Below are positions 2,833-25,766 of a stretch of DNA of 64,000 bases, piece by piece. Both the position numbers and the translations under genes were made by a program. Numbering within the stretch: the first letter of the stretch is position 1; every line of letters begins with the position of its first letter. The stretch comes from Paenibacillus sp. DCT19 (GTDB taxonomy: Bacteria > Bacillota > Bacilli > Paenibacillales > Paenibacillaceae), in NCBI RefSeq assembly GCF_003268635.1, contig NZ_CP029639.1, positions 5,343,501 through 5,407,500 on the forward strand, written 5' to 3'. The notes below the pieces were generated by a model. The model made no database searches, had not been told where the DNA came from, and saw only the letters and a list, made by a program, of their open reading frames with translations.

Positions 2833-5697
2833 TTAAAGCCGAAGACCCACGGTTACAATTTCACATGCTCTCGTCTGCATGATCCATTCTTTACTGGCAA
2901 AGGATACGGATGAAGCCCCTTCAATTGGACTAGCCTGTTGCGTTTCTGCCTCTTCCTCCAGTATGTTGCTCTTATACATCGTTTCAAATGACTGTGAATT
3001 GGTCTGTGAGGCAGCCAGTCTCAGCGTAGTCGCTTCTGTTGTCATGTTGTACCAGCGAAGCATCAGATCGCCTGAATCCGCATTGACCTTGAGGGATGAA
3101 AATGCCACCCCTTCCCCTTGCCACGCAAGTGGGGAATGACTAGGTGTGAGATCGCCTGGATGCACTTCAGTCTGTACCAGCGTCCATGGAACTTGGAACT
3201 GATAAGCCTCAATATATGCATCTGCAGATGCAGCACGGCCATGATGCGGGATGATCTCCAGTTGAAACGAATGCTCTCCGATACATTGGGCTTCTGGTGT
3301 CGGGAACAATCCCCAGTCTCCGAGTTCACCGACAGCTCGCAGTAAAGTAACGGCAATCGTATTGCGTCCATCCTGAAGGACTTCATACTCGTTCAGACCC
3401 AGGTTGGCAACGACTAATCCCACCTGATCCTCACTCACATTCACAAAGCTCTGCTGATGCTGCGTATTGCTAGGATTTTGCCACTCTGTTGCAGGGATAT
3501 TATCCCTTGTAGTGATTTCGAACATGGAATCCGCATGGTGCACAGCAGTCTTCAGATCCGTTGGGAAAAGAGCCCGCACCCGATGATCCTTCGCTTGATT
3601 GTCAAAGGTGGTTTCCATGTGAATTCCTTTTCCACATCGACTGAGCGATAGAACCGTCCGAATCTTTAACGGGATCATTCTCGCAGAACGTTGCGCTTTG
3701 CGATATGGATAATAGATCAATTCCCGTTGCTCACGATCCAGTAATTCATCTGCAGACTCAGGAACTTCCCAATGTTGAACAATTTCGTAGGAGACACGAT
3801 AGGCTGTATCCTCAATGACTCGAATCTCTGCCACAAGATCTTGTGTGGTTCTAGCCACTTCGTTTTCTGGCTGCTTGAACATGTACTCGTTCCCAATATC
3901 GCCAACATCCTCGTACATACCAAGATCATGATATGTACGACCTGTTTGTTTATCTGTAAGTGAGAACGAACCGTTGTTTGCAATCACGACCGATAAATGT
4001 TCATTTTCCATACCACGCTCTGTATGCCTTAATGCGGCTCCATTGGAGAGCTCTCCTTCATGAACGTCTTCATTAACTCCCCCTTCACTGCGAACCCAGG
4101 CAAATGTCTTCAAGCCAAGTGCAGGCACCTTCTCGGCTTCAAAAGTGATTCTGATCCGTCGGCAGCTGTATGGCTGGCGAAAACGGTCATCTGGGAGATC
4201 ATAGCCGAATTGCAGACCAAGATCATCTACTGTGCATGGAATAGATGTACCATGTTCATCAACCAGAATGCGATTGGATAGGTCAACTTTATTCATCTGA
4301 AGAGCCATTTCTTCCAAGGAATAGCCATCACGGAAATATCGGCGCGCAGCATCTAGTTCCATCTGCACAACACCACTACGTTCCCAACCTGTTGTATTGA
4401 AGGTAATGAGTGGTCGTGCATCCTCGCCATAGCTGCTAAAAATGGATGTATCCACCATGCTAGCGATCTCGCTGCTGCTCTGCTCAGCCAATGCTTCGGC
4501 TACATGACGGCTCTTATCGAATCGCGTGACCATTTCACGATGAACCTCGTCCACACTGCACCCACAGATACTATCATGTGGATGGTTTTGCATTAACGTT
4601 TTCCAAGCATATGTCAATTGATCATGCGGATAGGTGTGTCCGAGCAGATACGCATAGGACGCCAGTGGCTCAGCCACTTTTTCCAGCATCGCTTGCCCCA
4701 ATTGATTCATTTGTTTGAGATACACACGAGCGGAGGCCGTATTCACAAGCGTTCCCCAACCATCCGTACGCTGACTACGCAATTCTCCTTTTACCGTGGA
4801 TAGCTCATGTTCGGCATTTCCTTTCAGTGCTTCTAGATAATCTGGAAAGTTGGAATGAACAAACTCAATATCGGGGTATAATTGTTCCGCCATCCGAATG
4901 GCTTCCGGCAGATCCCGCTGGATCGGCTGATGATCGCAACCGTTCATGTACAACAACTCATTGGTCGAAGCATATTTCTCTGCGTCTGCAAGCTTGGTTT
5001 CCCAGAACTTCCGAGCTGAAGCCTCATCCACCGGAACCTCATTCCCGTTCGAGTACCAGTTAGCAAACAAAACACCGAGCACTTTCGATCCATCCGGTCC
5101 TTCCCACATCAACTCAGAGAAGCTGGATTCATATCCTTCATCCGATACCGTATTGTTAAAGCCTGTAGGTTTAACGCCCCGACCAAAGAAAACATTATCA
5201 ATCCCCGATTGCAGCATGAGCTGCGGAGTCTGTCCAACAAGACCAAACGTATCAGGAAAATAACCGATCTTCGACGGTGTGCCATAATGCTTGGCATCCT
5301 GATGTCCAACCTGCATATTGCGCACATTGGCTTCCCCGCTCGTCAGGAATGCATCCTGCAAAATGTACCAAGGACCAATCACAATTCTTCCGTTACGGAT
5401 ATGTTTCTCCAGTCGTTCCTTCTGCTCTGGACGAACCTGAAGATAATCCTCAATAATGATCGTCTGCCCATCCAGATAAAAGCTTTTGTAATCCAGTCCC
5501 TTATCCAGTTGATCCAACAGCGAATCTACCAGTTGTACTAAACGCATATGATGCTTCTCATACGGCAGGTACCACTCACGATCCCAGTGCGTATGGGAGA
5601 TAATATGTGCTCTCTTTGATTTTCGAGGTCTGCTTACTGATTCCGTAGTTAGATCTTGGCCTGCTTGTGTGGCTGGTTCTGTATGGTGTTGGGTCAT
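2833..5697 (-). CDS. GH38 alpha-mannosidase (MngB-like form)
   Basis: A 954-residue glycoside hydrolase family 38 enzyme, a zinc-dependent retaining alpha-mannosidase. It has no signal peptide, so it acts on imported oligosaccharides. The metal-binding motif HTHWDREWY is at about residues 35-43. The nucleophile region YFPDTFG puts the catalytic Asp at about 149, and NHPHDSICGCS supplies further metal ligands. This compact form with HTHWDREWY resembles MngB and the streptococcal GH38 enzymes that cut alpha-1,3-mannose. The C-terminal half is the usual all-beta GH38 region. It starts 4 bases after the preceding gene and is the last gene of the glycan operon; no convincing terminator separates it from dnaI. 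Linkage preference is inferred, not visible. Confidence 0.92.
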   Translation of the reverse strand: MTQHHTEPATQAGQDLTTESVSRPRKSKRAHIISHTHWDREWYLPYEKHHMRLVQLVDSLLDQLDKGLDYKSFYLDGQTIIIEDYLQVRPEQKERLEKHIRNGRIVIGPWYILQDAFLTSGEANVRNMQVGHQDAKHYGTPSKIGYFPDTFGLVGQTPQLMLQSGIDNVFFGRGVKPTGFNNTVSDEGYESSFSELMWEGPDGSKVLGVLFANWYSNGNEVPVDEASARKFWETKLADAEKYASTNELLYMNGCDHQPIQRDLPEAIRMAEQLYPDIEFVHSNFPDYLEALKGNAEHELSTVKGELRSQRTDGWGTLVNTASARVYLKQMNQLGQAMLEKVAEPLASYAYLLGHTYPHDQLTYAWKTLMQNHPHDSICGCSVDEVHREMVTRFDKSRHVAEALAEQSSSEIASMVDTSIFSSYGEDARPLITFNTTGWERSGVVQMELDAARRYFRDGYSLEEMALQMNKVDLSNRILVDEHGTSIPCTVDDLGLQFGYDLPDDRFRQPYSCRRIRITFEAEKVPALGLKTFAWVRSEGGVNEDVHEGELSNGAALRHTERGMENEHLSVVIANNGSFSLTDKQTGRTYHDLGMYEDVGDIGNEYMFKQPENEVARTTQDLVAEIRVIEDTAYRVSYEIVQHWEVPESADELLDREQRELIYYPYRKAQRSARMIPLKIRTVLSLSRCGKGIHMETTFDNQAKDHRVRALFPTDLKTAVHHADSMFEITTRDNIPATEWQNPSNTQHQQSFVNVSEDQVGLVVANLGLNEYEVLQDGRNTIAVTLLRAVGELGDWGLFPTPEAQCIGEHSFQLEIIPHHGRAASADAYIEAYQFQVPWTLVQTEVHPGDLTPSHSPLAWQGEGVAFSSLKVNADSGDLMLRWYNMTTEATTLRLAASQTNSQSFETMYKSNILEEEAETQQASPIEGASSVSFASKEWIMQTRACEIVTVGLRL

Positions 5698-5701
5698 CGT
5701 G

Positions 5702-8700
5702 TTATCCTACCTCTCCGTCTTGTTGTATAATCTCAACCTCATCAGGACGATACACTGCAAGCAACTTGCCATCTGAGTCTGTGGCAAACAGCACGGAACG
5801 GTCTTTCTCCAGTTGGAACGTATATGAAACGCCGGTACGTTTATCTCTTACTTGTACTTGATGATTCATTGAAGACTCTGATACAAACACAAATACATTC
5901 CCTTTTGGGAAACTAAGCTTCCGCCCGTAGACGCCCGCAATGTCTCCGCCAGATTTCCATTCCAGCTCCTCATGCACACCAGCAATACCCGTCGCATAAC
6001 GATACAACGCTGCCAGCGGCTCATCCCGTCCGTTTAACTCCAGTGGTAGCGGCGTCCAGATCAATTTACCTTTCCCCCAGGCCCTAACGGTTACCTCATC
6101 CGGCTTCCCATAATCCCGACCAGATAACGTCTCCTTCGCCACTTCAGCAATGCGACGCCGTCCATACGTCACACGGTGATTTACTCCATTAAGACTTAAC
6201 ATTTCTTCCCGCTGTACGTTACCCAATGTACGTTTACCCACGATATGATCTGCAAAGTCATTTGGCTTCCAGTAGGCATCCAACCCAAGTGGCCCAGTGA
6301 TCAGCAGACTTATTCCTTTTTGCTCCGTAAACGCAAACAATTGACGCAATGCATCACGATCCATATTGTGTGCACTCGGTACAATCACTAACTTCGGTGG
6401 CTGCTGCTCCAACGCTTCGAGGTGATACTCCGATACGGCGCGAAATGGTAGTTTGAGATCATAGGACATCACACGCGTGAGCTTGGTTGTAGCATCATAA
6501 GCCAGGGATCGGTTCGAAAAGTCGTTAGAATAGGGGAATACCACCGCAATCTCCTCAAGCTCCCGATCCTCGAAAAGATCACGAACCTGATCAATAAATC
6601 GACCGTAAGCGTACGATACATCCGCCTCCGGTTTCTCCGTACCATCTGCACGAAGCGCTCCAATATGGGACTCATTCGCATTATCCATATAAAAGTTGGT
6701 GTTCCATATCCATTGCACCGCTCCTGCACCCCCTGTAGCAAACGCATAAGCGTATTTGCGTTCAAGAATGTGTTGAAGCTCGGCTTCTGTGCGTTTGGCT
6801 CTTCCGTCCGGTGTCTCCACATACATAATGCCTGTCTCCTGAATGAGATTTGGCTTATGAGGCGTTTTCGTAAAAATACCATCCCAGATCAGATCATCGT
6901 TCAGCCACCAGGAATGTACTGTTGTGTAGTCCACCTCACGTTCATAAAAGAATGGCGAAGGACGCTGTGCGCCAAGGGCCTCGTCCTGTCCAACCGTGAC
7001 CAGATGATTGGGCACCAGATCCTTAATTGCATGAACAAGCTCTTGAACCCATGCATTGTGCATCTCCATAGAAAAGAGACAATAATCAAGCCAGCGTGTT
7101 CCTTTCTTCGCCTTGTGCATATCCTGTACGTCAAAATTAATGTCTTCCGGCTCTGGAATGACTGCGGCTGCAAAATCAGGAAGCTGCTGAGGTGACATGT
7201 TCCATGCCTCCTGAAGCACTTCAATCGATTCATGCCGCTGTTGAAGCCACTTCACAAAAGCCTGCTGTTCATGCGAATCCCTAGCAGAACGTGGACCATC
7301 TGAGAAAATACGTACTGGATCGAACATGGATGGCTCGTTAATCAGATCCCAATCCACATGGGTCGTATGTTTATGTCGACTGACGATACTGCGGATAAAC
7401 CGCTTCTGTGCCTCAACACTTTGTGGATCCAAATACGGATTCGTGCCTTCCCATGTCTCGGGTGTAAAGGAGAAGAACGTGAAGGTTACCTGCAAGCCGT
7501 GGCGCTTAGCCGTTAACAGGAAGGCATCAATCGCACGTAGCACATCCTCTGCCATATGACCATCCACCTGCATCATATTGCGATAGGCTGTCCAGATTCC
7601 TGTTCGAATCCAGTTAATGCCCGCTTTCGCCATCTGTTCCATATCCCGATCCCACACGTCCGCATTCGGCAGGAACAGGAATTTGCGTGCCACATCAGAG
7701 GTCATATAGGTCATACCAACCACAGGCAATGGCCGGCCGTCTTTTACAAAATAATCTCTACTGCGGGTGATAACTTCTCCCTCTTCAAGCAATGGAGCAT
7801 CCTGTCCCCAGAAGCCTTGACGCAGAATTCGCACTTCCCCATCCGCTGCCTGCGCACGACATATGATACGGTATAGTCCAGGCTGCACAGTAATTGGAAG
7901 GGGCAGGCGAATGAACTGCTGTTCACCGGAAAGCGTCATCTCAATCTGGTGACTCCATACGTTTTCGGATGTGCCTTTTGCACGATCCTCCCGTTCAATC
8001 GTTACATCAAATGTCCACAATTCAGGCGAAATAGATCTGAGTCCTGTACGATTCAAAATCTGGCCTTGGAAGGTCAAAACGGGCTGTTCACCAAGCTCGT
8101 AAGTAGCATAATTCGGTTTCAGAGACAGCTCGGTGACACCTCTGGCACAGAACTGTGCCCATCTCAACATCTCCTTCCCACCATCCTGCTCCCAAAAGGA
8201 GGTTGTTAGTGGCACATGGACAAACATCCAGCGTGAACCGCTAAACGTACTGCGTGAATTCTCCCATAACACAACAGGAGCTGAGATTTTACGTTCATCC
8301 TTACTCCATCCACACAGCAGCGGGTAGATCTGTGTACTCATCGTTCCAGCCGAACCCATCTGGTGAGGCAGATCGCTGTTTTTAGTCGTGTGCGGAACTA
8401 GATTCCACGTGTCAGCGATCTGAAACAGTCCCTCTTTGCCAGCAAGAAGAGGAATTTGCTCCGTAGTAGCAATCGTTTGAACTTTGGCAGAAGATACGCT
8501 TAATGCCTCATGAATGTATAGTTCTTGATGATATGCCGTTTGCTCCGATTCCACGATCCATACTCCGGCCTCATCTCGCACAGGTCGCTTAAACGGCGCA
8601 CCTCCGATACTGATCAGACTTCCCCCTGCTGCAGGTAAGCGATAATTGCTGTCCATGCTGACTTTGGAAAATAGGGTGCGTGCAGATTCACCAGACAGCC

Positions 8701-8874
8701 TCCACCCGCGGTGGAATGTAACAGCTCAGCTAGTTGATGCGCATCTGCAACAACGATTTCTTGTGTCGCTTGCCATGTATCCACAGCCTGCTTGGAAGGG
8801 AGAGCACTCTCTACCGGAAAATTGGGGTCAGCAAAAACGATCAGTTTGGGTTTAATCATCTGTGCATTGCTCAT
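5702..8874 (-). CDS. Clan GH-A glycosidase, candidate beta-mannosidase, frame broken once
   Basis: A cytoplasmic glycosidase of about 1057 residues once one missing base is restored. The first 84 residues (8874 down to about 8627) and the remaining 973 are in different frames. The break is at a run of five G on the coding strand (8622-8626); a sixth G gives a continuous YLQQGGSLISIGGAPFK. The start is an ATG overlapping the GH125 stop as ATGA. After an N-terminal alpha/beta domain and beta domains comes a TIM barrel with DLINEPS (acid/base Glu about 514) and NLIQETGIMY (nucleophile Glu about 680). A flavodoxin-like domain follows (KLVIVPSAHNM, LLITGPLG), as in GH42 and GH164 enzymes. The exact family is not certain. 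The setting suggests cleavage of Man-beta-1,4-GlcNAc left by the alpha-mannosidases. Confidence 0.8.
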
Positions 8875-10190
8875 AGCAGGCCAGCCTTCATCGATTTATA
8901 AACCAACTGGGAGAACAGGCTGTTCGACCATGCAAACCATTTTCGTGTAAAAATAGTTGGATCATCGGCATGAAAGCCTTCATGCATATAACCGGTGTCC
9001 GCATCCGTTGCTTCAAGCATGCGAATGATCTCCAGCTTTTCCTCATCTGATTGTGCAGTCAATCCTTGCATTGATAAGCCCATATGCCAGATGTAATTCG
9101 GTGGTGTGTGCGGGCTGCCGATGCCTTTGGCAACTTTCCCTTCATAATAGAAAGGATTCTCTTTGCTTAGAGCAAACCGGCGAGTATTTTGATAAATTGG
9201 ATCATCCGCTGTGACGTAACCGAGATATGGAATAGACATGAGTCCAGGTGTGCCCGCATCGTCCATTAGACAATAGTTTCCGTAGCCATCCGTTTCGTAC
9301 GCATAGATGGGTCCAAATTCAGGATGTCGATAAATCCCGTACAATTGAATACCATAATCCACATCCTGCTCCAGATCCTTAAGCTCCTGCAACAATGCCA
9401 TATCTCTGAACACCCATTCCGCAAACTCCTGCATTTGGCGCAATGCAACAACCGCAAACATATTTCCCGGGATGTTGTAGTGGAAATCACACGCATCGTC
9501 ACTGGAACGGAAGCCTGACCAGATCATTCCCGTATAATTCACAGGCATGCCTTTACCATGATTACGGAGAGAGTCTGTTGGGATGCCGTTATTACGCGTG
9601 AAACGATACGGTGATTGCTCCATATGGTGCTGTTCTACTTTGAACAGATCAACAATTTTACGCATCGCCGCCTTGAAGCTGGTATCAAAAATATCCGTCC
9701 GTTCGGTTTCCTTCCAATATACATACGCCAATCTCACAACGAAGCATAAGGAGTCGATCTCGAATTTGCGTTCCCATACCCATGGCGACATGTCCGTCTC
9801 GTCCGTTGTGTTCCAGTGCCAGTCATTAGCGGTTTCGTTGAAGGCATTGGCATACGGATCAATGTGAACATATTGGATGTGACGTTTAATCAGCCCGCCA
9901 ATAATGCGTTGCAGCTCCTCGTCTTCCTTCGCAAAGGGAATGTAGTGTATCACCTGTTCAACGGAATCACGCAGCCAGGAAGCTGGAATATCTCCAGTAA
10001 TCACAAACGTTGTACCATCCTCCATTAACTTCGTTGTTGTCTCAATGGTATTGGGAAAACAGTTCTTGAATAACTGAAGCAGCTTCGGTCGGTGAGCCAG
10101 CTTCTGTTCCGCCTCTTCAAGCACCGCCTGAATGGATTGTGGCAAAGCAACAGGTGGCATCGATATTTTGGGTAATCGGAATTGTTCCAT
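8871..10190 (-). CDS. GH125 exo-alpha-1,6-mannosidase
   Basis: A 439-residue member of glycoside hydrolase family 125 (formerly DUF1237), metal-independent inverting exo-alpha-1,6-mannosidases. Visible family blocks are TGDIPASWLRDSVEQV at about residues 65-80, NETANDWHWNTTDETDMSPWVWERKFEIDSL, RNNGIPTDSLRNHGKGMPVNYTG split over two lines of the family consensus, and DDAGTPGLMSIPYLGY. There is no signal peptide. AAAGGAG lies 11 bases before the ATG. The stop overlaps the ATG of the next glycosidase (ATGA), so the two are translationally coupled. In pneumococcus a GH125 enzyme works with GH38 to strip imported high-mannose N-glycan; the same division of labour is expected here. Confidence 0.93.
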   Translation of the reverse strand: MEQFRLPKISMPPVALPQSIQAVLEEAEQKLAHRPKLLQLFKNCFPNTIETTTKLMEDGTTFVITGDIPASWLRDSVEQVIHYIPFAKEDEELQRIIGGLIKRHIQYVHIDPYANAFNETANDWHWNTTDETDMSPWVWERKFEIDSLCFVVRLAYVYWKETERTDIFDTSFKAAMRKIVDLFKVEQHHMEQSPYRFTRNNGIPTDSLRNHGKGMPVNYTGMIWSGFRSSDDACDFHYNIPGNMFAVVALRQMQEFAEWVFRDMALLQELKDLEQDVDYGIQLYGIYRHPEFGPIYAYETDGYGNYCLMDDAGTPGLMSIPYLGYVTADDPIYQNTRRFALSKENPFYYEGKVAKGIGSPHTPPNYIWHMGLSMQGLTAQSDEEKLEIIRMLEATDADTGYMHEGFHADDPTIFTRKWFAWSNSLFSQLVYKSMKAGLL

Positions 10191-10272: not shown

Positions 10273-13200
10273 TTAGCGCAGTAGCACCGTTTTAATCTCG
10301 TAAGGCTCAAAGGTCAGTGTGATCTGACCATTGGTGATATCCAATGACTCCCCAACCTCTTCCAAAGCGTTTGAGAGGCAGGCTTGCTCACACCCTTGCG
10401 ACCATTGCAGAGTTACACGTTCCCGTGTACCTGAAGATTCATAGAAACGAAGCACCTGGCCGTAGCCATTCTCCGCCGGTTTAACGGTATCCAGCACGAC
10501 ATGATGACTATCCAACTGGATCCAGCTTCCTCTTGCCGGAAGATCACCTTCGCTCTGTTCCGTATGCTGAACAGTTATTTCATGATTCAGTTCGGCTGCT
10601 TGACGGACGATATGTGCTTGTTGCCAATCTCCTTCATGCGGGTACAGAGAATAAGTGAATGTATGCTCTCCAAGGTCAGCCGTTCGGTCAGGCCATTTAG
10701 GTGCACGCAGTAGAGATAAACGCATCGTGCTGCCTTGCACGTCATAGCCATATTTGCAATCATTAAGCAGGCTCACGCCGTATCCGTATTCTGATACATC
10801 TGCGAAACGGTGCCCACAAACTTCATATTGGGCTTGCTCCCAGCTTGTGTTACGGTGGGTTGGCCGTTCCAATGCGCCAAACGGTATTTCGAATGTAGCC
10901 TTGGATGTTACTACATCAATTGGGAAGCTAACTTTCAGCAGCTTGTGTTCTTCATTCCAGTCGACATGGGTCTCAAAGTCGATCCGAGGTGAGTCGTGAT
11001 AAAAGACAACATCCTGCGTAATCACCGATTGGTGAAGCTTCCATTGGAAGCGTAGTACATCCTTCGTTGTTCCCGCCAGCACCAGCTTTTTCTCCAACAG
11101 CTGCACTTCACCAGCGATCTGATCTTCATAACGGTTATCGATATCCCAAGCATCCCAGAGTGTCGGACGGTCATGGAAAAAGTAAAATTGATTGCCTCGT
11201 TCACCTGGCTTCAGTATCTCGCGCTCTGCGCGCTTATCCCATAAACGAGTGATCTCTCCGCGTTCGTTAAATTGTACATAGTAAAATGCCGTTTCCCATG
11301 TATCGTTAAAGCTCTGTTGTCCCGCGAGGATTGCCGATTCTCGCACATGTGTATCCCTAGTATTTTCCGGTACCAGCCAAATGGTCTTGTATCCAAACGC
11401 CGGGATATCTGTCACAAGAACAGACATGCTGTCCTCTTCCAGATCTAATCGCAAACGCTGACCTTCTCCATCTATGGCATATCGATCAAAGCCATCATGG
11501 AATGGAAGACGAACGAGTGCATTCCGTTTCCAACCGAGACTGTTAAACACAACGTAGGCTACAGAACCAGCTGGTCCTTGTGTGTCCATTCTCTTGATCA
11601 ATGCTGTAATTCCTTGATGAAGAGCGGTTGTACCCAGTTCAAATACTTGCCTGTATTCCTCATCTGAGGTCACGTAAGATTCTGTAATGGCCGAGCCTGG
11701 AATAATATCGTGGAATTGATTCAGCAAAATCAGCTTCCAGCCATCATGTAGTGTCGAACGCATCTCAGCTTCCGTGTCTGCGCTCATATCCGGAAAAGCG
11801 AGAGTGCTCCATAACTCGGCTTCACGATACAGCACTTCTGCTTTGCGGTTATTGCGTTTGTTGCGTGCATGGGTCGTATAAGTTCCTCGGTGCAGCTCCA
11901 AATACAGATCGCCATGCCACTTCGGAAGAACTGGATGTTCCTGTTCAATTCCAGCAAAAAAGGCTCCGGCTGTGCTATATCGACTTGCAGGCTGGCCTAC
12001 CATAAGACTCGCCCGATCCACGTACTCCAGCATCTCGCGCGTTACCCCGCCACCACCATCACCATGTCCGTATAAGAGCATTTGCTCGGGATGTGCTGCT
12101 TTCTCCCGGTATGACTGCCAGTGATCGTGGATATCCTTCGGCAAGGTATGTTCATTGACGCCATGATTGAGGTAAGACAAAATCGCTGTGCCGTCGATAC
12201 CAACCCAGTGAAAGAGATCATAGGGGAACACATTCGTGTCATTCCATCCCAGCTTCGTGGTCATGAAATAATCGACATTGCCATGCTTCAGAATCTGAGG
12301 GAGAGAAGCACAGTATCCAAACGTATCCGGCAGCCACTCGATATTCGATGTCTTGCCAAACTCCTCCATGTAGAAACGTTGACCATATAACATCTGGCGA
12401 ATCAAGGATTCACCACTTGGGATATTCAGATCCGGTTCAACCCACATGCCACCAACTAACTCCCACCGACCCTCCGCAATCCGCTGCTTCACCCGTTCAT
12501 ATAGCTCGGGATCATGCTCTTTCAGGAAGGCATACAGCAAAGGTTGGCTCTGGGAATACACATATTCAGGGTATTCATTCATTAGAGCATCCACGGTAGA
12601 GAACGTCCGACTTGTTTTGCGCACCGTCTCGCGTACAGGCCACAGCCAAGCAATATCAATGTGTGACTGTCCCACCATATGCTCCAGCCCTTCCGCATTA
12701 CCGCCGATCTGATGTACTTGATGCCTCAGGCTCTTCTCAATCTGACAAATGTGTTCTTCCTGCCTGATCTCTTCATTCGTTAAACCAACGAATTGATCCA
12801 TGGATTGATACAATGCTTCCAGTAACCTTACCCGCCGAAAGTCACTCTCGGGCAGCAATGTCGTCGAATCACGTATAATAATGACCGTGTACATCAAACT
12901 ACGAACTGCTTCGTTCGGTCTCACCAGCAAGCTGGTAATCGAAGTTATCGGTGGTTGAATAACCGCTTGTTGATTCAAGGGATCTACAGGTTCAGGTACT
13001 GGATCAAACATCTCAATCTCAAGTTCAGGTGAGATGCCGACTTGGGACGGATCAAGCGTAACGTAGGTATGATTGCGATCCAGCCCTTGATATGAGCGTC
13101 CATTTACCCGTAACAAACCTTCTCCTCCAGTTTCAAAGACCAATCCGTACGGTGCATCCCGCCAAGAGTCAGGAATCTCTAAACGTGTTCTGAAGAAATA

Positions 13201-15702: not shown

Positions 15703-15735
15703 CCTGCATCTCTCCAATCCTATCGAGTGATTCGG

Positions 15736-16680: not shown

Positions 16681-17610
16681 CTAGAATAAACTGCTATCTT
16701 TATCAATTTTGCGAACGACATAGTTGGAGATGATTACAAGCACAAAGCCCACAACGGATTGATACAATCCTGCTGCTGTACTCATTCCAATCTCCCCGCT
16801 TGTTTTCAAGCCACGATAGACATACGTATCAATAACGTTCGTAACCGAGAAAAGTGTACCCGAGTCCCTTGGCACCTGATAGAACAGTCCAAAGTCGGCA
16901 TAGAAGATGCGGCCTACGGCCAGCAAGGTCATAATGGTAATGATTGGCGACAGCAATGGGATCGTAATGTTGCGAATCTGCTGCCATTTGTTCGCTCCAT
17001 CAATCATGGCTGCTTCATACAGCGAACGATCAATCCCCAGAATAGATGCCAGATACACGATGCTGTTGTAACCAATGGTTTTCCATAATGCGACAAAAAC
17101 CAGAATATACGGCCAATACTTAGCCTCGGAGTACCATTGGATCGGCTCCATTCCAAACCAGCCAATAATCTGATTCAACATCCCTCGATCCATACTCAGG
17201 AAGCTGAATACGAAGTAACCAACGATAACCCAGGACAGAAAGTAGGGGAGAAACATCCCCGTTTGATATAACTTCGCTAGCCGTTTATTAATGAGCTCCG
17301 AGAGTAAAATCGCTAGCCCTACTGCAAAAACCAGCCCTAAAAAAATAATGGCGATATTATAAAAAAGGGTATTTCGCGTAATCAGCCATGCGTCATTGGT
17401 GCTGAACAGAAATTTGAAATTATCCCAGCCTACCCACTCACTCTTCATCAGGCTTGCCCAGAAGCCTTCGCGACTGACTCGATATTCCTTGAATGCAGCC
17501 ACCGTGCCCACGAGTGGCAGATAAGAGAAGAAGAAAAACCAGATGGCACCAGGCAGTACCATGAACAGCATGACTCGGTTTTTAATCAGATTTTTCAAAA
17601 ATGTAGTCAT
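16681..17610 (-). CDS. Carbohydrate ABC transporter permease (LplB/YtcQ-partner type)
   Basis: A 309-residue permease with six predicted membrane segments and the EAA loop EAAMIDGANKWQQIRNITIPLLSP at about 208-232. The N-terminus FLKNLIKNRVMLFMVLPGAIWFFFFSYLPL is typical of the LplB family, which pair with LplC-type permeases and very long solute-binding lipoproteins for complex oligosaccharides. AAGGAGG lies 9 bases before the ATG. An intrinsic terminator (17638-17676) between the binding protein gene and this one should make permease mRNA less abundant than binding-protein mRNA. Confidence 0.93.
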   Translation of the reverse strand: MTTFLKNLIKNRVMLFMVLPGAIWFFFFSYLPLVGTVAAFKEYRVSREGFWASLMKSEWVGWDNFKFLFSTNDAWLITRNTLFYNIAIIFLGLVFAVGLAILLSELINKRLAKLYQTGMFLPYFLSWVIVGYFVFSFLSMDRGMLNQIIGWFGMEPIQWYSEAKYWPYILVFVALWKTIGYNSIVYLASILGIDRSLYEAAMIDGANKWQQIRNITIPLLSPIITIMTLLAVGRIFYADFGLFYQVPRDSGTLFSVTNVIDTYVYRGLKTSGEIGMSTAAGLYQSVVGFVLVIISNYVVRKIDKDSSLF

Positions 17611-17676: not shown

Positions 17677-17688
17677 TACGAATTACGT

Positions 17689-19160
17689 TTACTTGTTTTC
17701 CGCTCTCCAGGCGTCCAGTTGGCTTTGGGCTTCAGCCATTACCTTCTCCAGTCCGGCTTGATTGAATTTCTCAATCACTTGATCCAGATTGGTTGCCGGG
17801 TCTAGTGTACCTGTCATCAAAGCTGCCCAATATTGCTCTTTCACGTTCTGTACTGCCGTAAGTTCAGCAGATACATTACTTGCATCAAAGTTGAAGCTGA
17901 GGATTGGAGAATTCACACCTTCAGCATTAAACTTTTTGAACTCATCCCATTTGTTGTCCGGGTCATTGCTGTTCAGATACAGGAGCATGTTATTCCCGAG
18001 GGAGTATGAAGGCATATCGTAGTTTTTCGATTCAGGCAGATTCTCCATGTGGGTGTCATCTACTTTTTTGTAATGCGTGCCCTCGATCCCGGAGTCAACC
18101 ATATTGCGGAGAACCGGATCTGTATTCAGCAGGTTCAAGAATTCCATCGCTTTCTCTGGATATTCCGAGTTCGCTGAGATCGCCATAATCGATCCTTGTA
18201 CCGATGTATTCGTAATAATTGCATCACTTGCTGGTGTGGAAACGACAGGATATCCATAGCTTGCAGACCATTGGTTATCTGCCATCGGTTGTGTCTGTGC
18301 ACGATCTAGGAACCAGTTGCCTGATGTCGTGAGATCATTCGTAGATCCCGTCGTTGCAGCTTCTGGGGACACATAACCTGCCTTATAATATTTATTCATA
18401 GTGGTAAGTGCTTCTTTCATCTCAGGTGTTTCTAAGATGTTCACAAGTTTGTAGTCGGTTGTATCCAGTTTGATTGCCATTGGAAGGTTCTGAATAACAT
18501 AATCGTATGGCACATATGGAACGTAGTTCTTATCCATAGCAAACGGCGTAACACTTGGCTCATTTTCCTTGATCGTTTTGAGCAATGGCTCTAAACTGTC
18601 TAGCGTTCGAATGCCGGACATATCCAGCTTGTATTTATCTAGCAAGGTTTGGTTGAAACGCCATACCTCTTGCTGTGGCAACTCTTTGTTGGCTGGAATA
18701 CCATAATTGTGTCCGTCTACCTTGGAGCCACTAAGGAAGGCCGGATCGATTGTATCCGTCAGCTCCTTACCGTATTCAGGAAGCAGCTCATCTAGCTCCA
18801 TGAACGCACCTTTTCTCGCATTTAGGACATAATCGAATCCGCCAGAAGCAGTAAACAGAATATCCATCGGTTCACCTGACGCTACGTTCACCTGCATCTT
18901 CTGTGGATAATCACCCCAGTCAACCATCTTCATTGTCACTGTGGCATTAATCTTTTCTTTGGTGTACTTGCTAACTTCCTCCATCACTTTATTAACATCC
19001 TTTTGCGGTGTACCAATGGTGTACCAGATCAACTCGACCGAGTCGTCTCCCGCTCCTCCGGATTCTGAGGCCTCTTTGCTCCCCCGCATGCACTAAGAAC
19101 AAGCGTAACAGCCATTAACAATGCAAGAACGAGTGAGAAACGTTTTTTTGATTTACTCAT
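17689..19160 (-). CDS. Extracellular solute-binding lipoprotein, frame broken once
   Basis: The substrate-binding lipoprotein of the importer, about 490 residues when restored. The ATG at 19160 (7 bases after GGGAGGG) starts a classic signal: MSKSKKR, a hydrophobic core, and lipobox LSAC. Directly after the lipobox Cys there is a run of five G on the coding strand (19081-19085). A sixth G would join the signal to the mature frame (CGGSKEASESGGAGDD). As written, the signal and the 466-residue mature part are in different frames. The mature part is a family 1 solute-binding protein (ELIWYTIGTPQKDVNKVMEEVSKYTKEK) as in LplA/YtcQ and pneumococcal NgtS. I think a base is missing from the sequence, but slippage within the run is an alternative. 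Confidence 0.85.
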
Positions 19161-19224
19161 TTTATGACCCTCCCTTTTCGTGTTCCCTTCAGCGCTACAA
19201 ACTAACTACATTAACCTTATCGAA

Positions 19225-19238
19225 TGAAAGCATTTACA
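19225..19238. promoter_or_regulatory. cre-like CcpA site upstream of the binding protein gene
   Basis: TGAAAGCATTTACA matches the cre consensus TGWAARCGYTWNCW at 13 of 14 positions when read on the minus strand. It lies 65-78 bases before the lipoprotein start, where a promoter would be, so CcpA binding would repress the transport and glycosidase operon. Confidence 0.65.
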
Positions 19239-19315
19239 AAAAGAAGATAAACTTAAGGTTTCGAGGTACAAATTAAAGAGAAACAGGTTTAATCATTCAA
19301 ATTTTTATTATTTTA

Positions 19316-19442: not shown

Positions 19443-20966
19443 TCATCCAAACACTTTAAAATCAGTCGGTGAAATACCTACATACTTGCGGAATTGTTTG
19501 TAAAAATATCCTGTCTCCCAATACCCTACATTCCGAGCGATCTCATGCACCTTCAGATTGGAATTACGTAACTGCTCCTTCGCACGTTCAATCCGGTATT
19601 TATTGAGGTATTCAGCAAATGTCTCTCCTGTCTCCTTATGAAACAATTGCCCCAGATACACGGGATGCAGATGATAATGGGCGCCTAGCAGCTTCAGGGA
19701 TAGCTCGTCTGCGTAATGTTTGTCGATATGCTGAAGCACCTGATTCACGATCGGATTTTTCAAATCCTGTAGCAAGGACTGGATGGTCTTTAGACCCACC
19801 TCCTGAAGAGCTAACACTAGTTCATCAAAGGTGTTGCTATCTAATACAAGACGAAGCCCCTCCTGATACATCGCCGTTTCATCTGAATGTTTAATGGCCT
19901 CTAGCTCCATTTTGAAACGAATAACGACTTCCAATGCGGTATTCTGAAGCTCCCCTGGCGTAAGTCCATCACGGTGTTGTTCAAAATCTGTGCGAATGCG
20001 GTTAGCAAGCTGTTCAACATTGCGGGACAGAATAAGCTTGGCATATTCCCTCCAATCAATAAAGAACGTAGCTGCATGATCTTCGCATTTGTCTAACATC
20101 GCATAATCAATAATTTTCAGATCGGGATAGATCATGACATACTGAAGTGCTGTCTTGGCATCTGCATAACTGGACGGCGCATGATATAACCCTTGCATCA
20201 ATCGTCCCATCCCGATCCGCACTGATGGATGTGTTACTGAGATCGCTTCATATAAGTTCTCTAGCCCCTCCATCAATTTCTTTTCCTCATCTGCATGCCC
20301 ATCCATATTAGCTATGATGACGATATCTCCGTCCATATCATGGAACACGTTGAGATGAGGCTTAACGCCTAGCAGCCGCCCCACTTGTTCAAACATGTCT
20401 GAGTTTTGTCCTTGATCTTTATTACGCAAGATGGCGACTGCAACATATGACGCTTCCAGCGAAATGTTCATAAACCGGGCACGTTCCTCAAATTCAGTAT
20501 CTGCAATCTGTCCTGTTAACCAGCGGTGAAGGATATTGTCCTTCAGAATCTGAATACCATAGGCGTCATTATTTAGTTTAGGTGGAACTGCACGATCTAG
20601 CTTGGAAGCTGTATTGGTCAGCGTCGATTCCAATTCTTCCACATTAATGGGTTTGAGCAGATAATTCTCAATGCCAAGTTTCATGCCTTCTTTTAAGTAT
20701 TCGAATTCATTGAAACCACTTAAAATAATCACTTTAACCTCAGGTTGCAGCCGTCTTGCTTCGCGAATCAGATCTAGGCCATTCATAATGGGCATCGATA
20801 TATCCGAAATGAGAATATCCACAGATTGAGAAGAAAGTGCTTCAAGCGCTGCTTGCCCATTACCCGCATGATTTACGATCTCCAACCCGAATGAAGACCA
20901 GTCCACTATATCGTACAGCCCTTCAATGATGAAAGGCTCATCATCTACAATAAAAACTTTATACAT
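19443..20966 (-). CDS. AraC-type response regulator (YesN family)
   Basis: A 507-residue cytoplasmic response regulator. The receiver domain (1-120) has VFIVDDEPFI at the start, phosphoacceptor Asp in ILISDISMP at about 55, and ILSGFNEFEYLKEGMKLGIENYLLKPI. A long middle domain follows. The C-terminal two-helix AraC DNA-binding domain (about 410-507) ends GYWETGYFYKQFRKYVGISPTDFK. I chose the ATG at 20966 (MYKVFIVDDE) preceded by GGACAGG. It overlaps nothing and begins one base past the kinase stop, so the pair is one operon. YesMN systems usually activate a neighbouring sugar locus; the counterpart in pneumococcus (TCS07) is linked to N-glycan use. Confidence 0.93.
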   Translation of the reverse strand: MYKVFIVDDEPFIIEGLYDIVDWSSFGLEIVNHAGNGQAALEALSSQSVDILISDISMPIMNGLDLIREARRLQPEVKVIILSGFNEFEYLKEGMKLGIENYLLKPINVEELESTLTNTASKLDRAVPPKLNNDAYGIQILKDNILHRWLTGQIADTEFEERARFMNISLEASYVAVAILRNKDQGQNSDMFEQVGRLLGVKPHLNVFHDMDGDIVIIANMDGHADEEKKLMEGLENLYEAISVTHPSVRIGMGRLMQGLYHAPSSYADAKTALQYVMIYPDLKIIDYAMLDKCEDHAATFFIDWREYAKLILSRNVEQLANRIRTDFEQHRDGLTPGELQNTALEVVIRFKMELEAIKHSDETAMYQEGLRLVLDSNTFDELVLALQEVGLKTIQSLLQDLKNPIVNQVLQHIDKHYADELSLKLLGAHYHLHPVYLGQLFHKETGETFAEYLNKYRIERAKEQLRNSNLKVHEIARNVGYWETGYFYKQFRKYVGISPTDFKVFG

Positions 20967-20967
20967 A

Positions 20968-22797
20968 TTACACACCTGTCCTTTCTGTATGTGGATAACG
21001 CACCGTGATTGTTGTCCCTTCTCCGAAAGTGCTCTCAATCGTAATTCCGAACTCTGGTCCATATAAGTAGCGCAACCGACTATGGACACTTCGCAATCCA
21101 AACATCTGACCTGACTCCTCAGGACGTTCCAACTCTTCCATGATCTCTGTCAGGCGTGAAGGCTCAATGCCCTTTCCGTTATCCCTGACCTCTACCTGTA
21201 GGATATCTCCTTTCTCTTGCACAACAATGGATAACCGATTGTCAGAGCGTTCTATGCGAATTCCATGAACGACGTAATTTTCAATAATCGGCTGTAGAGA
21301 AAGCTTAACCACGGGATGCTGATAAAAAATAGAATCGATCTGGATCGTATAGACGAATATATCCTTGTAGCGGATGCGGAATAGCTCCAGATATAAACGG
21401 CAAGCCTCCATCTCATCCTTCAACGTGTAGTTTTTCTTCTGTTGTACCAAGCTCTTGAACAATACAGATAGACTATAGATCATCTCACCCACATCTCTAG
21501 CTCCCTGAGATATAGCCCTCATCCGAATGACTTCGAGCGTATTATACAGAAAGTGCGGGTTAATACGTGCCTGTAGCGCAACGAGTTCGGTCTCCTTCTG
21601 TTTGATCTCAGCTTTGTACACTCGCTCAATGTATAGGTTGAGCTCGTCCAGCATATCGTTGAAGCTATGCGAGATTTGCCCAAGCTCATCATCCCTTGCG
21701 TCATCAATGCGCGCCTGCAAGTTCCCGTATTTTACTTTTTGGGTAAAGCGAATAATTTTTCGGGTACGCTTCGCAAAGTTGATAATGAAAAATGCCGGAA
21801 CGAGTACAGCGAACAAAAGACATACGATACTAATGGAAACGATGGTATTTCGAATACCCGCGTAAGCTTCAGCCATTTCTTCCACAGGAACTGTGCCAAT
21901 GACGACATAGCCTTGATCGGCCGAGACAAACTTATTGACGTACATGTTCTGCTCTTTCTTCATCTCGTCCATATCCGTCTGGTCAAACAGTGAGTCAGCC
22001 ATATTCACGTAAGGGTACTTCTTCCCGTAATAATTGTTGTTGGAGTCAAATAACACGGTGCCTTTGGCGGATAACACCACGATATCTCCCTTTAGATTGC
22101 TGTCATAGTTATCGAGCGCATTACCGATTCCTTTTGAATCATAGAACACAAGAAACTGCCCGAGATTGCGAAGCGTCTGCGTATCATTAATCGGAACACG
22201 AATGGCATACAATGCAGGGTCCCATTGATTGATCTCTTTACGAATCCATAGATTCGGTGCACTGATATTAGGCGTTTCCATCGCCATCACGTCAGGAATG
22301 TAAGAGTGCGCTGCATTGGTACTTAGCTTGCGGAACGGTTTGTTTTGATTAAAGACAGACAGGTCCTGCTGCTCAGCACTGTATAACATCAGATGATGAA
22401 TCTCTGAATTGCGATCCATGATATTCTGGAAATGTTTAAGCACATCTGCCGAATAATCATCCTGATTGGCGTAATAACCATTCGTCAAATGTTGAACATA
22501 CTCCGCATATGTGTGGTTCATCAGATAAGTGATGTTGGCGGATAATGCCTCATTCTGATGCATGTCCCTCACCATATTCTGCACTGCTTCAAATTGCTGA
22601 TGAATGGTTCGATCCACATGCTCCATCGCGGCTTTCTGAATGGCTAACTCCCTGCGAATAGTCGAGTCGGATACCGATAGAAAGATAAGATAAGACAGCG
22701 TTATGATCGTAACAATTGATATCATCGAGAAGATGAACAGCATTTTCATAAACATATTATTTTTGAAGAAATTATTGTAAACGCTAACAATTTTCAA
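20968..22797 (-). CDS. Sensor histidine kinase (YesM family)
   Basis: A 609-residue membrane sensor kinase. A first membrane segment (about 20-42) precedes a large extracellular sensor region of about 240 residues, probably Cache-like, then a second segment (about 290-312) and a HAMP domain. The His_kinase block LQARINPHFLYNTLEVIRM carries the phosphorylated His, and the HATPase domain has VRDNGKGI and FGLRSVHSRL. I chose the TTG at 22797, 10 bases after GGAGGG, giving LKIVSVYNNFF. A perfect cre site covers codons 3-8. It starts the TCS operon, divergent from the GH85 gene. It probably senses an extracellular glycan or a ligand-loaded binding protein. Confidence 0.9.
   Translation of the reverse strand: MKIVSVYNNFFKNNMFMKMLFIFSMISIVTIITLSYLIFLSVSDSTIRRELAIQKAAMEHVDRTIHQQFEAVQNMVRDMHQNEALSANITYLMNHTYAEYVQHLTNGYYANQDDYSADVLKHFQNIMDRNSEIHHLMLYSAEQQDLSVFNQNKPFRKLSTNAAHSYIPDVMAMETPNISAPNLWIRKEINQWDPALYAIRVPINDTQTLRNLGQFLVFYDSKGIGNALDNYDSNLKGDIVVLSAKGTVLFDSNNNYYGKKYPYVNMADSLFDQTDMDEMKKEQNMYVNKFVSADQGYVVIGTVPVEEMAEAYAGIRNTIVSISIVCLLFAVLVPAFFIINFAKRTRKIIRFTQKVKYGNLQARIDDARDDELGQISHSFNDMLDELNLYIERVYKAEIKQKETELVALQARINPHFLYNTLEVIRMRAISQGARDVGEMIYSLSVLFKSLVQQKKNYTLKDEMEACRLYLELFRIRYKDIFVYTIQIDSIFYQHPVVKLSLQPIIENYVVHGIRIERSDNRLSIVVQEKGDILQVEVRDNGKGIEPSRLTEIMEELERPEESGQMFGLRSVHSRLRYLYGPEFGITIESTFGEGTTITVRYPHTERTGV
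22776..22789. promoter_or_regulatory. Perfect cre site within the start of the sensor kinase gene
   Basis: TGTAAACGCTAACA matches the cre consensus TGWAARCGYTWNCW at every position. It lies 8 bases inside the kinase coding region, so CcpA would act as a roadblock or block the promoter, placing the regulator itself under catabolite repression. Confidence 0.8.
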
Positions 22798-22919
22798 GTC
22801 GCGGGTTCCCTCCGATGCTGTTTTTCTGTATTGAATTATATCATTCGCCCCCTGACATAGACCGGACACCTTGAATTTTTCTTTAATTTATACATATGTT
22901 TCTTTAATTTCGCCCTATA

Positions 22920-22933
22920 TGAAAACGCTTTTA
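22920..22933. promoter_or_regulatory. cre-like site upstream of the GH85 gene
   Basis: TGAAAACGCTTTTA matches the cre consensus at 13 of 14 positions. It lies 77-90 bases before the GH85 start and directly before a TATACACTAT stretch that could serve as the -10 region, in the 212-base divergent spacer. Confidence 0.65.
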
Positions 22934-23009
22934 TACACTATCGTTAACCATAAGTTTAGCTTTCTGTAAAAGAAAACCATACATTCATCCCACTTGAAGG
23001 AGGAACAGC

Positions 23010-25766
23010 ATGACACGTAAAATCAAACCGAAGGGCTTCATGCCCAAAGTAACGTCCATGGTGCTCACAACCGCACTACTCGGACAGATTCTGGCCTCGT
23101 CTGTATATGCGGGAGACACGCTCCCTTATACTGGCGAAAGTGCCAAGGGGATTAATCAGCCCTATCAGCATGGCTACACTGCTGCTCAGATTCTAAACTG
23201 GACACCGGAGAGTGATATCTATGGAGACCTACTTCGTGCCCACGTCCCCTTGCAACCGCGTAATGAGGCATTTGCTGCTACACAGGCTTACCCCGAGCTC
23301 AGCCCAGAAACTCAACTATTCACCATGAGTGGTGATTATGGTAATGCGTTCTTTGATAGCACGCCATATACCAATGAATTTAGTCAATATCTCTTTAATT
23401 ATTGGCAATATACGGACTACTACAGCTACTGGCACGGCATGGCGTCTGCTGGAGTTCCTGAAGAGTTATACGACCCCAGCAAGGAATGGACGGAGAAGTA
23501 TTTTGAATTCGGCATTCTGAACATTCCAAACCCAGCTTACACCAACGCAGCTCACAAGAATGGGGTGAAGTCCATTGCCAACATCTTTTTCTCCGATAAT
23601 GACCGCGGCCCTCAGACTTATAAACAAATGCTGATCCAAGACGAAAACGGAAACTTCCCTGTAGCTGAGAAGTTAGCCGAGATGGCGGAATACTACAACT
23701 ATGACGGATATTTCTTCAATCAGGAGGAGGTTGCCCGTGGTGTAGCTCCAGAGGATATCCCATCGTACAAAAAATTCATGAAGTATCTAAGAGATCAAGG
23801 ATTATATGTGCAATGGTACGATTCCACGGTCAATACAACCGGCAAAATTCAGTATCAGAATGAGTTTAATGGACTCAATAGTCCCTTTGTCCAAGATTCG
23901 ATTCTGGGCAGAGTCTCTGATTCCATCTTTTTGAATTATGTGTGGAACCACAATATGCTTCGCGATTCGCGCGACCATGCCATCAGCCTAGGACTTGATC
24001 CACTGGAAACCGTATTCGCTGGTGTTGAAGGCGGACATGACAAGTTTGGGCGCTGGAAGCAATCCTATGATCTACGAAACAACTTGGATGAGAACGGCCA
24101 ACCGATGAACAGCATTGCAACTTTAGGTGCGGACTTCACCCATAACGCGCTAGATGAAGAGATGGGCGACGGTAGCACCAATCATCGGGCAGAGGATGAG
24201 TACCAATGGATGACCTTTGTTCGTGATCGTGCTTGGTGGTCTGGGCCGAATCAGGATCCTACGAATGCACGGCGCAACGCCACAGCTAACCTATCGGATG
24301 TGTATGCATCTGGTGCCAACTGGGATGGTATTGCCGCATACCTTACTGAGCGCTCCGTCATCGAAGGCTCCAACTTTACAACCAGCTTCAATACTGGACA
24401 CGGCCTACAATATTATCTGAATGGCTCTGTATCCAATGATAAAGAGTGGTCCAACATCAATATTCAAGATATCCCTGTCACCTGGCAATGGTGGATGGAT
24501 AGTCAAGGTAGCAAACTCAGTGTAGATTTCGATTATGGTCCAACCTATGAAAAAGGCGCTCGATATAACTATGACGCCATTGGCGCATTCAAAGGTGGCA
24601 GCTCTCTTGTGGTAAACGGTACACTCAGCGCAGATAACTTCCTTCGCCTGTATAAAACTGATCTGTCCGTCAATGCACAGTCGAAACTGGATCTGACATA
24701 TAACAAGCCGTCTACTGATGATGCTTCCTCTCTACGCGTAGGACTAATCTTCCAAGACGCACCTGAGAACGTAGTCTACGTTAATGTCCCTAATTCGGGT
24801 AAACGTACAGCTGGCTGGGAGACTGTTTCACTGGATTTAAATGCATATCAAGGTAGGACGATTGCCGCTTTTGGACTCTCCTTTGATCCGAACCATACAA
24901 CCATTGAAAATTATCAGATGAACATTGGTCAGATCCGCATTACAGACGGTTCAGCGATTGTACCCGACGCTCCTACTGAATTCCATATTACCAGAGCATT
25001 AACCAATACGGATGAACTGGTCGTCGCATGGGACATGAAGGACTATTCAGAGGTCAAGCAATACAATTTATATGAAAATGGTGCATTTGTCGGCGGTGTG
25101 TATGATTCCACGTTTTACATCAAATCCCTTAAACAGCGGTCTGGTGAACTATCCATACGAGCTGTAGGGGCAGATGGTACTGAGAGTGAAGCAGCCGTTC
25201 TACCTTATAATTTGAATACAGCAGTGCAAGATATCGACGTAAAATTCAAATCGAATGGTGATGCCATCGTTAGTTGGAAGAAACCTAAGAAATCTAAGGG
25301 CAATGATACCATCCAGCTTACGCTTGAGACGGAATATACCAAGGAACCTTTCACCAAGTCACTTCAATTGAAAAATAATAAACCATCCACCATCCTGACG
25401 GGACTCCCGACTAATGGTGAACATTACGTATTGAATATCGCCGTCGGCGATCATGCTCCAGTGACCTACACTGGTAAACTGGCAGATCTCCAGATTACTC
25501 CATACCCCCAAGATAAGGTTACGGTAAAAGACGGTAAATACACACTTGCCCTGCCTGACTTGGAGGACTGGTACAAAATCTATGTATATGAGAACGGGGT
25601 AGCCCGCGAGTTCGGGGTTACTTATGTTACGCAGAAATTCCCGTATATCATCCGGGGCAGAACGAAGCTCAGTGAACTGACCTTCACACCTGCATCCAGT
25701 AATAGCACATTGAAGCTGGTTATCGAAGATTATGCAGGGAATCAGGCGACAACCATTCTGAGGTAG
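23010..25766 (+). CDS. Secreted GH85 endo-beta-N-acetylglucosaminidase
   Basis: A 918-residue secreted enzyme of family GH85, which cuts between the two core GlcNAc residues of N-glycans and frees the oligosaccharide from glycoproteins. A signal peptide spans 1-34 (basic start, hydrophobic core, cleavage after VYA). The catalytic barrel contains YDGYFFNQEE with the paired N237 and E239 expected of GH85 (oxazoline-stabilising Asn and acid/base Glu). After about residue 500 come beta-sandwich and fibronectin-like modules. No LPXTG, SLH or other anchor is visible, so it is probably released. GGAGG lies 8 bases before the ATG. It is divergent from the TCS operon and ends in a strong terminator. 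It is the only exported hydrolase of the locus. Confidence 0.93.
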   Translation: MTRKIKPKGFMPKVTSMVLTTALLGQILASSVYAGDTLPYTGESAKGINQPYQHGYTAAQILNWTPESDIYGDLLRAHVPLQPRNEAFAATQAYPELSPETQLFTMSGDYGNAFFDSTPYTNEFSQYLFNYWQYTDYYSYWHGMASAGVPEELYDPSKEWTEKYFEFGILNIPNPAYTNAAHKNGVKSIANIFFSDNDRGPQTYKQMLIQDENGNFPVAEKLAEMAEYYNYDGYFFNQEEVARGVAPEDIPSYKKFMKYLRDQGLYVQWYDSTVNTTGKIQYQNEFNGLNSPFVQDSILGRVSDSIFLNYVWNHNMLRDSRDHAISLGLDPLETVFAGVEGGHDKFGRWKQSYDLRNNLDENGQPMNSIATLGADFTHNALDEEMGDGSTNHRAEDEYQWMTFVRDRAWWSGPNQDPTNARRNATANLSDVYASGANWDGIAAYLTERSVIEGSNFTTSFNTGHGLQYYLNGSVSNDKEWSNINIQDIPVTWQWWMDSQGSKLSVDFDYGPTYEKGARYNYDAIGAFKGGSSLVVNGTLSADNFLRLYKTDLSVNAQSKLDLTYNKPSTDDASSLRVGLIFQDAPENVVYVNVPNSGKRTAGWETVSLDLNAYQGRTIAAFGLSFDPNHTTIENYQMNIGQIRITDGSAIVPDAPTEFHITRALTNTDELVVAWDMKDYSEVKQYNLYENGAFVGGVYDSTFYIKSLKQRSGELSIRAVGADGTESEAAVLPYNLNTAVQDIDVKFKSNGDAIVSWKKPKKSKGNDTIQLTLETEYTKEPFTKSLQLKNNKPSTILTGLPTNGEHYVLNIAVGDHAPVTYTGKLADLQITPYPQDKVTVKDGKYTLALPDLEDWYKIYVYENGVAREFGVTYVTQKFPYIIRGRTKLSELTFTPASSNSTLKLVIEDYAGNQATTILR

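Follow-up and report, generated by a model that had tools for sequence, protein, structure and literature searches.

At positions 2833-25766 of a 64,000-nucleotide stretch of the Paenibacillus sp. DCT19 genome (contig NZ_CP029639.1, positions 5,343,501 to 5,407,500 of the forward strand; hereafter the window, in whose numbering coordinates are given) lies a cluster of 11 genes that probably forms an inducible pathway for the use of high-mannose or paucimannose N-glycans. Ten of them occupy the minus strand, namely eight enzyme and transport genes together with a response regulator and a histidine kinase, and a glycoside hydrolase family 85 (GH85) gene diverges on the plus strand; the cluster is flanked by dnaI (1658-2608) on one side and dnaB (26136-27671) on the other, both named by eye from sequence. 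Pfam and NCBIfam matches confirmed all 11 genes as first called, and the assignments of a sequence-only reading (GH85, lipoprotein, two permeases, two GH38s, GH125, a large clan GH-A enzyme, GH3 and a YesM/YesN pair) held throughout (Table 1). Gene identities, homology, conserved linkage and motifs common to two promoters are observed, and from these we infer the activities, the induction and the substrate of the GH-A enzyme.

Table 1 Genes and promoter features of the locus (window coordinates; ABC, ATP-binding cassette; HTH, helix-turn-helix; cre, catabolite-responsive element).
Feature	Position	Strand	Evidence
GH38 alpha-mannosidase, SpGH38/MngB-like type	2833..5697	-	Pfam GH38 domains; PDB best 3lvt/5kbp/2wyh
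Large clan GH-A enzyme, N-terminus cut by frame break	5702..8656	-	Partial GH42/GH5 Pfam; Bs164 profile match; fold; invariant E441/E607
GH125 exo-alpha-1,6-mannosidase (predicted)	8871..10190	-	Pfam 2.7e-157; PDB 2nvp
GH38 alpha-mannosidase, Ams1 type; optional module with GH3	10273..13380	-	Pfam; PDB; linkage
GH3, beta-xylosidase/beta-glucosidase branch, not NagZ-like	13384..15717	-	Pfam, NCBIfam, PDB
ABC permease 2	15736..16656	-	Pfam/NCBIfam
ABC permease 1	16681..17610	-	Pfam/NCBIfam
NgtS-like DUF3502 lipoprotein binding protein	17689..19160 (open frame 17689-19089)	-	PDB; paralog comparison; relatives' frames
Cre-like site, binding-protein promoter	19224..19238	-	
Candidate operator for the regulator, ahead of the binding-protein gene: TCTTTAATTT once, then a 7/10 copy after 20 or 21 bp	19249..19279	-	
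YesN/RR07-type response regulator, receiver and AraC-type HTH	19443..20966	-	Pfam
YesM-type histidine kinase	20968..22869	-	Pfam
Candidate operator upstream of GH85: two TCTTTAATTT copies 21 bp apart	22880..22910	+	
Cre-like site, GH85 promoter	22920..22934	+	
GH85 endo-beta-N-acetylglucosaminidase, N-terminal signal peptide by eye	23010..25766	+	Pfam 2.2e-67; EndoD match

Export signals were recognized by eye in the GH85 protein and the lipoprotein only, the signal peptide of the latter lying in another frame. The regulator pair was typed by its domains, the kinase carrying His_kinase/HATPase and HAMP domains and the regulator a receiver with an AraC-type HTH. The 11 genes include neither an importer ATPase nor a sugar kinase, so that 'self-contained', as the locus had first been described, is too strong a term. 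GH92, GH20, ROK and GH29 genes are likewise absent from the 11, the rest of the genome not having been searched for them.

The catalytic domain of the GH85 protein scored 228 bits against a Pfam cut-off of 22.2. Its match to EndoD (2w91, E value 1.2e-53) was about equalled by four other GH85 chain sequences in the Protein Data Bank (PDB), and its glycan preference can therefore not be read from similarity. The NQE motif aligns as FFNQE here and FINQE in 2w91, its Asn and Glu presumably being the catalytic residues. Twelve genomes of the genus (loci L002-L013) carry another GH85 elsewhere that outscores the locus enzyme on the Pfam model, 11 in addition to the locus GH85 and one (G066) in its place.

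Both GH38 proteins contain the N-terminal, middle and C-terminal GH38 domains, and they are indeed of two types, as had been proposed. The first is nearest to 3lvt/5kbp and 2wyh (best E value 4.4e-275), shows no signal peptide by eye and is predicted from sequence to be a cytoplasmic alpha-1,3-mannosidase, while the nearest PDB relative of the second is Ams1. The GH125 protein has a full-length domain (524 bits, cut-off 23.4) and matches 2nvp, which we take to come from Clostridium perfringens, with an E value of 8.5e-156. The GH3 protein fell below the cut-off of all eight NCBIfam models that it matched; its best PDB match was 7zb3, a beta-xylosidase, and an assignment as NagZ was rejected (PRK05337, 58 bits against a cut-off of 207).

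Homology of the binding protein to NgtS is firm at the level of sequence. Its nearest PDB entries (E values 5e-83 to 4.5e-82) were 5swa, 5swb and 5suo, named NgtS in section 10 of PMC5215778, and 5mlt, an unnamed binding protein in the match list; the 5swa match (5.2e-83) covers query positions 5-462, nearly the full length. Among the seven DUF3502 places in the source genome, the locus protein included, it is the best NgtS match at 276 bits. The same section describes Trp81 of NgtS as contacting an alpha-1,6 mannose and Trp386 as stacking on mannose-N-acetylglucosamine (Man-GlcNAc), and Trp81 is conserved in the locus protein, where WGDY is aligned. Several details weigh against reading a Man5GlcNAc specificity into this homology. 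The margin is modest, with the next single pieces reaching 179 bits (paralog L190) and 170 bits (L189), and the frame-broken L189 summing to 246 bits over its two pieces; the Trp81 column is Trp in paralogs L193 and L194 as well; and Trp386 is not conserved, being Tyr in one alignment and a gap in another, while L189 and L190 do carry Trp in that column.

Aligned promoters of relatives contain conserved blocks, from which we took two motifs. The element TCTTTAATTT occurs three times in the 64 kb, always within the two locus promoters, a count reached in 0 of 100 shuffles. Of the 40 named loci that include the 5' end of the binding-protein gene, 24 have a relaxed tandem pattern (two mismatches allowed) no more than 450 bp ahead of that gene and 16 have none; the spacing in the 24 sites is 20 bp in 23 and 21 bp in one. 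Elsewhere the pattern was found at nine places in 1.79 Mb, counting both strands. The cre-like 15-mer occurs twice in the window, once per locus promoter (two reached in 0 of 100 shuffles). Two points temper these results: both motifs were picked after the promoter alignments had been viewed, and the strict tandem pattern occurs in only one of the 40 loci, and nowhere else. Over the whole window the plain cre consensus, one mismatch allowed, was not above chance (nine against a mean of five; nine reached in 11 of 100 shuffles), nor were promoter-like sites before dnaI. An exact cre consensus lies at 22776-22789, early in the coding sequence of the kinase.

The GH-A enzyme has an open reading frame of 984 aa in the window and measures about 1,060 aa in relatives. 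Pfam gave matches just above threshold to two families, over only part of each profile: GH42 (36.3 bits, cut-off 21, profile positions 149-236 of 376) and GH5 (24.6 bits, cut-off 23.5, positions 24-132 of 272). It matched no NCBIfam family, and a single-sequence PDB search returned no convincing relative (best E value 0.0092). Using a 27-row profile, we obtained as first PDB match the GH164 beta-mannosidase Bs164 (E value 9.8e-6), the best stretch (427-577) lying in its GH42M-type domain and a second stretch, below an E value of 10, not being displayed; a GH5 mannanase followed (profile positions 388-429, E value 4.6e-5). The structural model (predicted local distance difference test score 79, predicted template-modelling (TM) score 0.83) adopts a GH42/GH164-like fold. 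In the 27-row alignment, E441 (NEP), E607 (QETG), R351, N440, H581, W649 and W651 are invariant. PMC8233224, in the part used here, lists six active-site residues for GH5 exo-beta-mannosidases, and by our reading each has an invariant counterpart in the GH-A enzyme, a pairing of residues that are common in clan GH-A. The modelled fold thus supports a beta-glycosidase, and the assignment to mannose rests on context: GH38 and GH125 enzymes would cover the alpha bonds, which leaves the Man-beta-1,4-GlcNAc bond, and by its position in the locus the GH-A enzyme is the best candidate for the hydrolase of that bond.

It is possible, if somewhat doubtful, that the N-glycan route is right and the GH-A enzyme removes another beta-linked sugar, a GH130 phosphorylase elsewhere in the genome splitting Man-beta-1,4-GlcNAc. 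Foldseek placed a GH42 beta-galactosidase first (1.7e-23) and Bs164 at rank 28 (1.4e-20; target TM score 0.66-0.70 over the rows displayed), and those above Bs164 include GH42 beta-galactosidases, a beta-1,2-glucosyltransferase and an exo-beta-glucosaminidase; because GH42 beta-galactosidases outrank Bs164, the identity of the sugar does not follow from the fold. The families listed for this bond in section 15 of PMC10154615 are GH2, GH5_18 and GH130. The source genome has two GH130 genes, one of them near TM1225, beta-1,4-mannooligosaccharide phosphorylases and UhgbMP, which speaks for this alternative inasmuch as the product could cleave Man-GlcNAc. It lies 0.95 Mb from the locus beside the second GH130, among apparent beta-mannan genes, which argues the other way. 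The surrounding stretch (L218, G000:C1:6311000-6330900) holds, besides the two GH130 genes, an importer, an epimerase-like gene and a LacI-like gene and, read from its open reading frames, looks like a separate beta-mannan locus. GH2 matches number ten in the genome; of the eight scanned, two exceeded a LacZ-type cut-off and none any other, and a mannosidase immunoglobulin-like (Ig) domain was found in none of the eight, three of which are incomplete at a stretch edge (L215 by about 99 residues).

Linkage in other genomes also bears on the GH-A enzyme. From 361 named loci we took the best 80, a sample hence biased to the clade of the window, and tallied locus genes up to 10 kb either side of the GH-A gene, with identity thresholds applied. 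GH125 shared the stretch in 78 of the 80, which argues against a GH-A enzyme that is not the core beta-mannosidase; the SpGH38-like GH38 did so in 76, the binding protein in 70 and each permease in 71. GH3 and the Ams1-type GH38 were both present in 32 stretches and both absent from 47, the GH38 standing alone in one. The common core is therefore importer, GH125, GH-A enzyme and GH38, with GH3 and the Ams1-type GH38 as an optional pair. Among 20 loci of the family, 13 belong to the clade of the window (61-70% identical), 12 of them with GH125 nearby, and none of the remaining seven (54-59% identical) has GH125 nearby. GH-A matches of both clades, a few of them weak, occurred in 181 of 295 family genomes. 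A phylum sample gave matches in 18 of 398 genomes, six full-length (the source genome included) and all in Paenibacillaceae, the other 12 being short, weak pieces. Among the named relatives listed, Paenibacillus tundrae DS1314 is the nearest, with 96% identity in GH-A.

We consider the chances evenly balanced that the GH-A enzyme is the first member of a new family in clan GH-A (by comparison with Pfam, NCBIfam and the PDB), full-length only in Paenibacillaceae as searched, that cleaves the Man-beta-1,4-GlcNAc of imported N-glycans and would stand as a fourth family beside GH2, GH5_18 and GH130; a second clade of the enzyme (clade B), which lacks GH125 as a neighbour, may act on other beta-mannosides. 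The neighbours of clade-B genes yielded one suggestive case: at L085:1533-8281 the genes next to a GH-A paralog of this clade encode a GlcNAc-2-epimerase-type protein and a GH2 that bears a mannosidase Ig domain.

Whether GH85 belongs to the system is a separate matter, as the locus could instead feed on free or fungal/yeast alpha-mannosides, with GH85 a late addition in the genus. None of the 80 stretches contains GH85, that of genus members falling beyond the flank covered, and loci of the short form, outside the genus, combine importer, GH125, GH-A enzyme and GH38 with no GH85 in the flanks covered. Outside the genus, GH-A and GH85 lie within 30 kb of each other in only one (G086) of the 28 family genomes with both listed; and even among the 51 of 75 genus genomes that have GH-A, some copies broken or partial, seven have no GH85 within 30 kb. 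We nevertheless think this account unlikely. GH85 does lie within 30 kb in 44 of the 51 (GH125 within 8 kb in 49), the promoter motifs are common to GH85 and the operon, and the NgtS-type binding protein speaks against a locus for alpha-mannosides only. The short-form stretches moreover reach little upstream of the kinase gene, which makes the absence of GH85 there incomplete evidence. GH85 is thus linked mainly in the genus Paenibacillus and mostly unlinked outside it.

The sequence-only reading had proposed that the same gene set be sought between dnaI and dnaB in related strains, and the GH-A gene lies there in 42 of the 75 genus genomes. These make up 42 of the 51 with GH-A, and 17-43 kb separates dnaB from dnaI in them. 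Eight of the 51 carry the locus elsewhere, with dnaB and dnaI 37-270 bp apart, and in one (G049) the contigs are split; among the 24 genomes without GH-A the gap is at most 1.21 kb in 23 and 8.5 kb in one. As the gap is small both in genomes lacking GH-A and where the locus sits elsewhere, adjacency of dnaB and dnaI is probably ancestral and the locus probably entered the junction in one branch. Across the interval 2609-2832 the operon continues on the same strand into dnaI, so that a sugar operon may drive the reading of dnaI or uncouple it.

Two frame breaks in the source strain raise the question of whether its locus is a decaying relic, which we judge improbable. The binding-protein frame begins just after the lipobox, with the signal-peptide ATG at 19160 in a different frame, and the N-terminal coding sequence of the GH-A enzyme, which reaches to about 8874, is likewise out of frame with the rest. 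Broken or partial locus genes do occur in other genomes (GH-A in G002, G005, G013 and G054; GH85 in G005, G013, G025 and G054; a split GH38b gene in G017 and a split kinase gene in G025). Signal peptide and binding protein nonetheless share one frame in all ten relatives' stretches examined, and the N-terminal GH-A motif is in frame in 48 of 49, the 49th (L086) having a motif variant in a 1,062-codon frame. Since both breaks fall in runs of G where relatives are in frame, and further genes of the assembly also look interrupted, sequence errors are the likely cause; the GH-A enzyme, moreover, is 96% identical to the G035 copy over 975 residues. A third break in the window affects an endo-galactanase-like gene (39573-40621, plus strand; GH53-like by eye), split over two overlapping frames. 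A mannosylglycerate locus of the MngB type, suggested by the PRK09819 match of the first GH38 (E value 2e-146), is scarcely credible and was rejected, as that match reaches 489 bits against a cut-off of 1,138 and the neighbouring genes do not fit.

An N-glycan pathway, the reading we prefer, has close precedents. In Streptococcus pneumoniae, the parts of PMC5215778 and PMC7075642 used here describe EndoD, the NgtS-P1-P2 importer and a GH38-GH125-GH92-GH20-ROK-GH29 set under TCS07. The Paenibacillus locus has in common with it GH85, an NgtS-like importer, an SpGH38-like GH38, GH125 and two-component regulation; it differs in that the pneumococcal GH92, GH20, ROK and GH29 are missing from its 11 genes, that it adds the GH-A enzyme, the Ams1-type GH38 and GH3, and that it is a single contiguous locus. 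The idea of a pneumococcal-type strategy thus stands, given NgtS-type homology (5e-83), GH85, GH125 and the SpGH38-like GH38, although 'rebuilt', the word first used for it, is wrong because its components are homologues of those in the pneumococcus. Plant or fungal glycoproteins, suggested in the sequence-only reading as the substrate, are no more than a possible source. Judged by sequence, the locus appears to be the known GH85/NgtS/GH38/GH125 route and is not unique to the strain. The portion of PMC7075642 consulted follows the pneumococcal pathway as far as ManGlcNAc, leaving the final bond open, and reports no consensus RR07 motif.

The set had also been called distinctive, which holds for the GH-A enzyme, noted earlier without identification, and not for the presence of several GH38s, since a high-mannose operon of Bifidobacterium longum with three GH38s and GH125 is described in section 9 of PMC10154615. 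Several intracellular GH38s and GH125 acting after import would be common to both; relative to the families listed for the core bond, the candidate here is the GH-A enzyme. The Cutibacterium acnes GH38/GH5_18 locus (in what we drew on of PMC6160142) likewise pairs a GH38 with an N-glycan-core beta-mannosidase, here a candidate one, and with ABC transporter genes. Its GH5_18 enzyme is, according to the part of PMC8233224 used, a dimer of single TIM barrels, whereas the GH-A enzyme of about 1,060 aa in relatives has a GH42M-like domain. It resembles in architecture the trimeric exo-beta-mannosidases Bs164 (GH164) and Op5Man5 (GH5) treated in the consulted parts of PMC7105311 and PMC8233224, with a GH42-like combination of TIM barrel and trimerization domain; it is longer than both on the N-terminal side of the barrel, and its sequence match to Bs164 is best only in the GH42M-type domain. 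Among the papers listed on Paenibacillus N-glycan enzymes, mannosidases and GH85, no title or abstract opening describes such a locus. The overall strategy was already known; new here are the GH-A enzyme, the candidate operator and the position of the locus at the dnaB-dnaI junction.

In the pathway we propose, secreted GH85 would cut glycoprotein glycans between their two core GlcNAc residues, and the lipoprotein and two permeases, energized by an ATPase encoded elsewhere, would import the released ManxGlcNAc. Inside the cell, the SpGH38-like enzyme would take off alpha-1,3-mannose and GH125 alpha-1,6-mannose, the Ams1-type GH38 would probably take off alpha-1,2-mannose, standing in for a surface GH92, and the GH-A enzyme would split the residual Man-beta-1,4-GlcNAc. 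The YesMN-type pair would activate both promoters through the tandem repeat spaced by 20-21 bp, perhaps with CcpA control in addition.

The N-glycan pathways in the literature cited here come from gut, skin and host-associated bacteria. If the pathway is as proposed, it would provide a candidate for a new beta-mannosidase family, as well as a candidate operator of a regulator type for which the consulted part of the pneumococcal study (PMC7075642) gives no consensus motif, and a widespread, regulated Paenibacillus version would point to regular use of glycoproteins as a carbon source beyond animal hosts as well.

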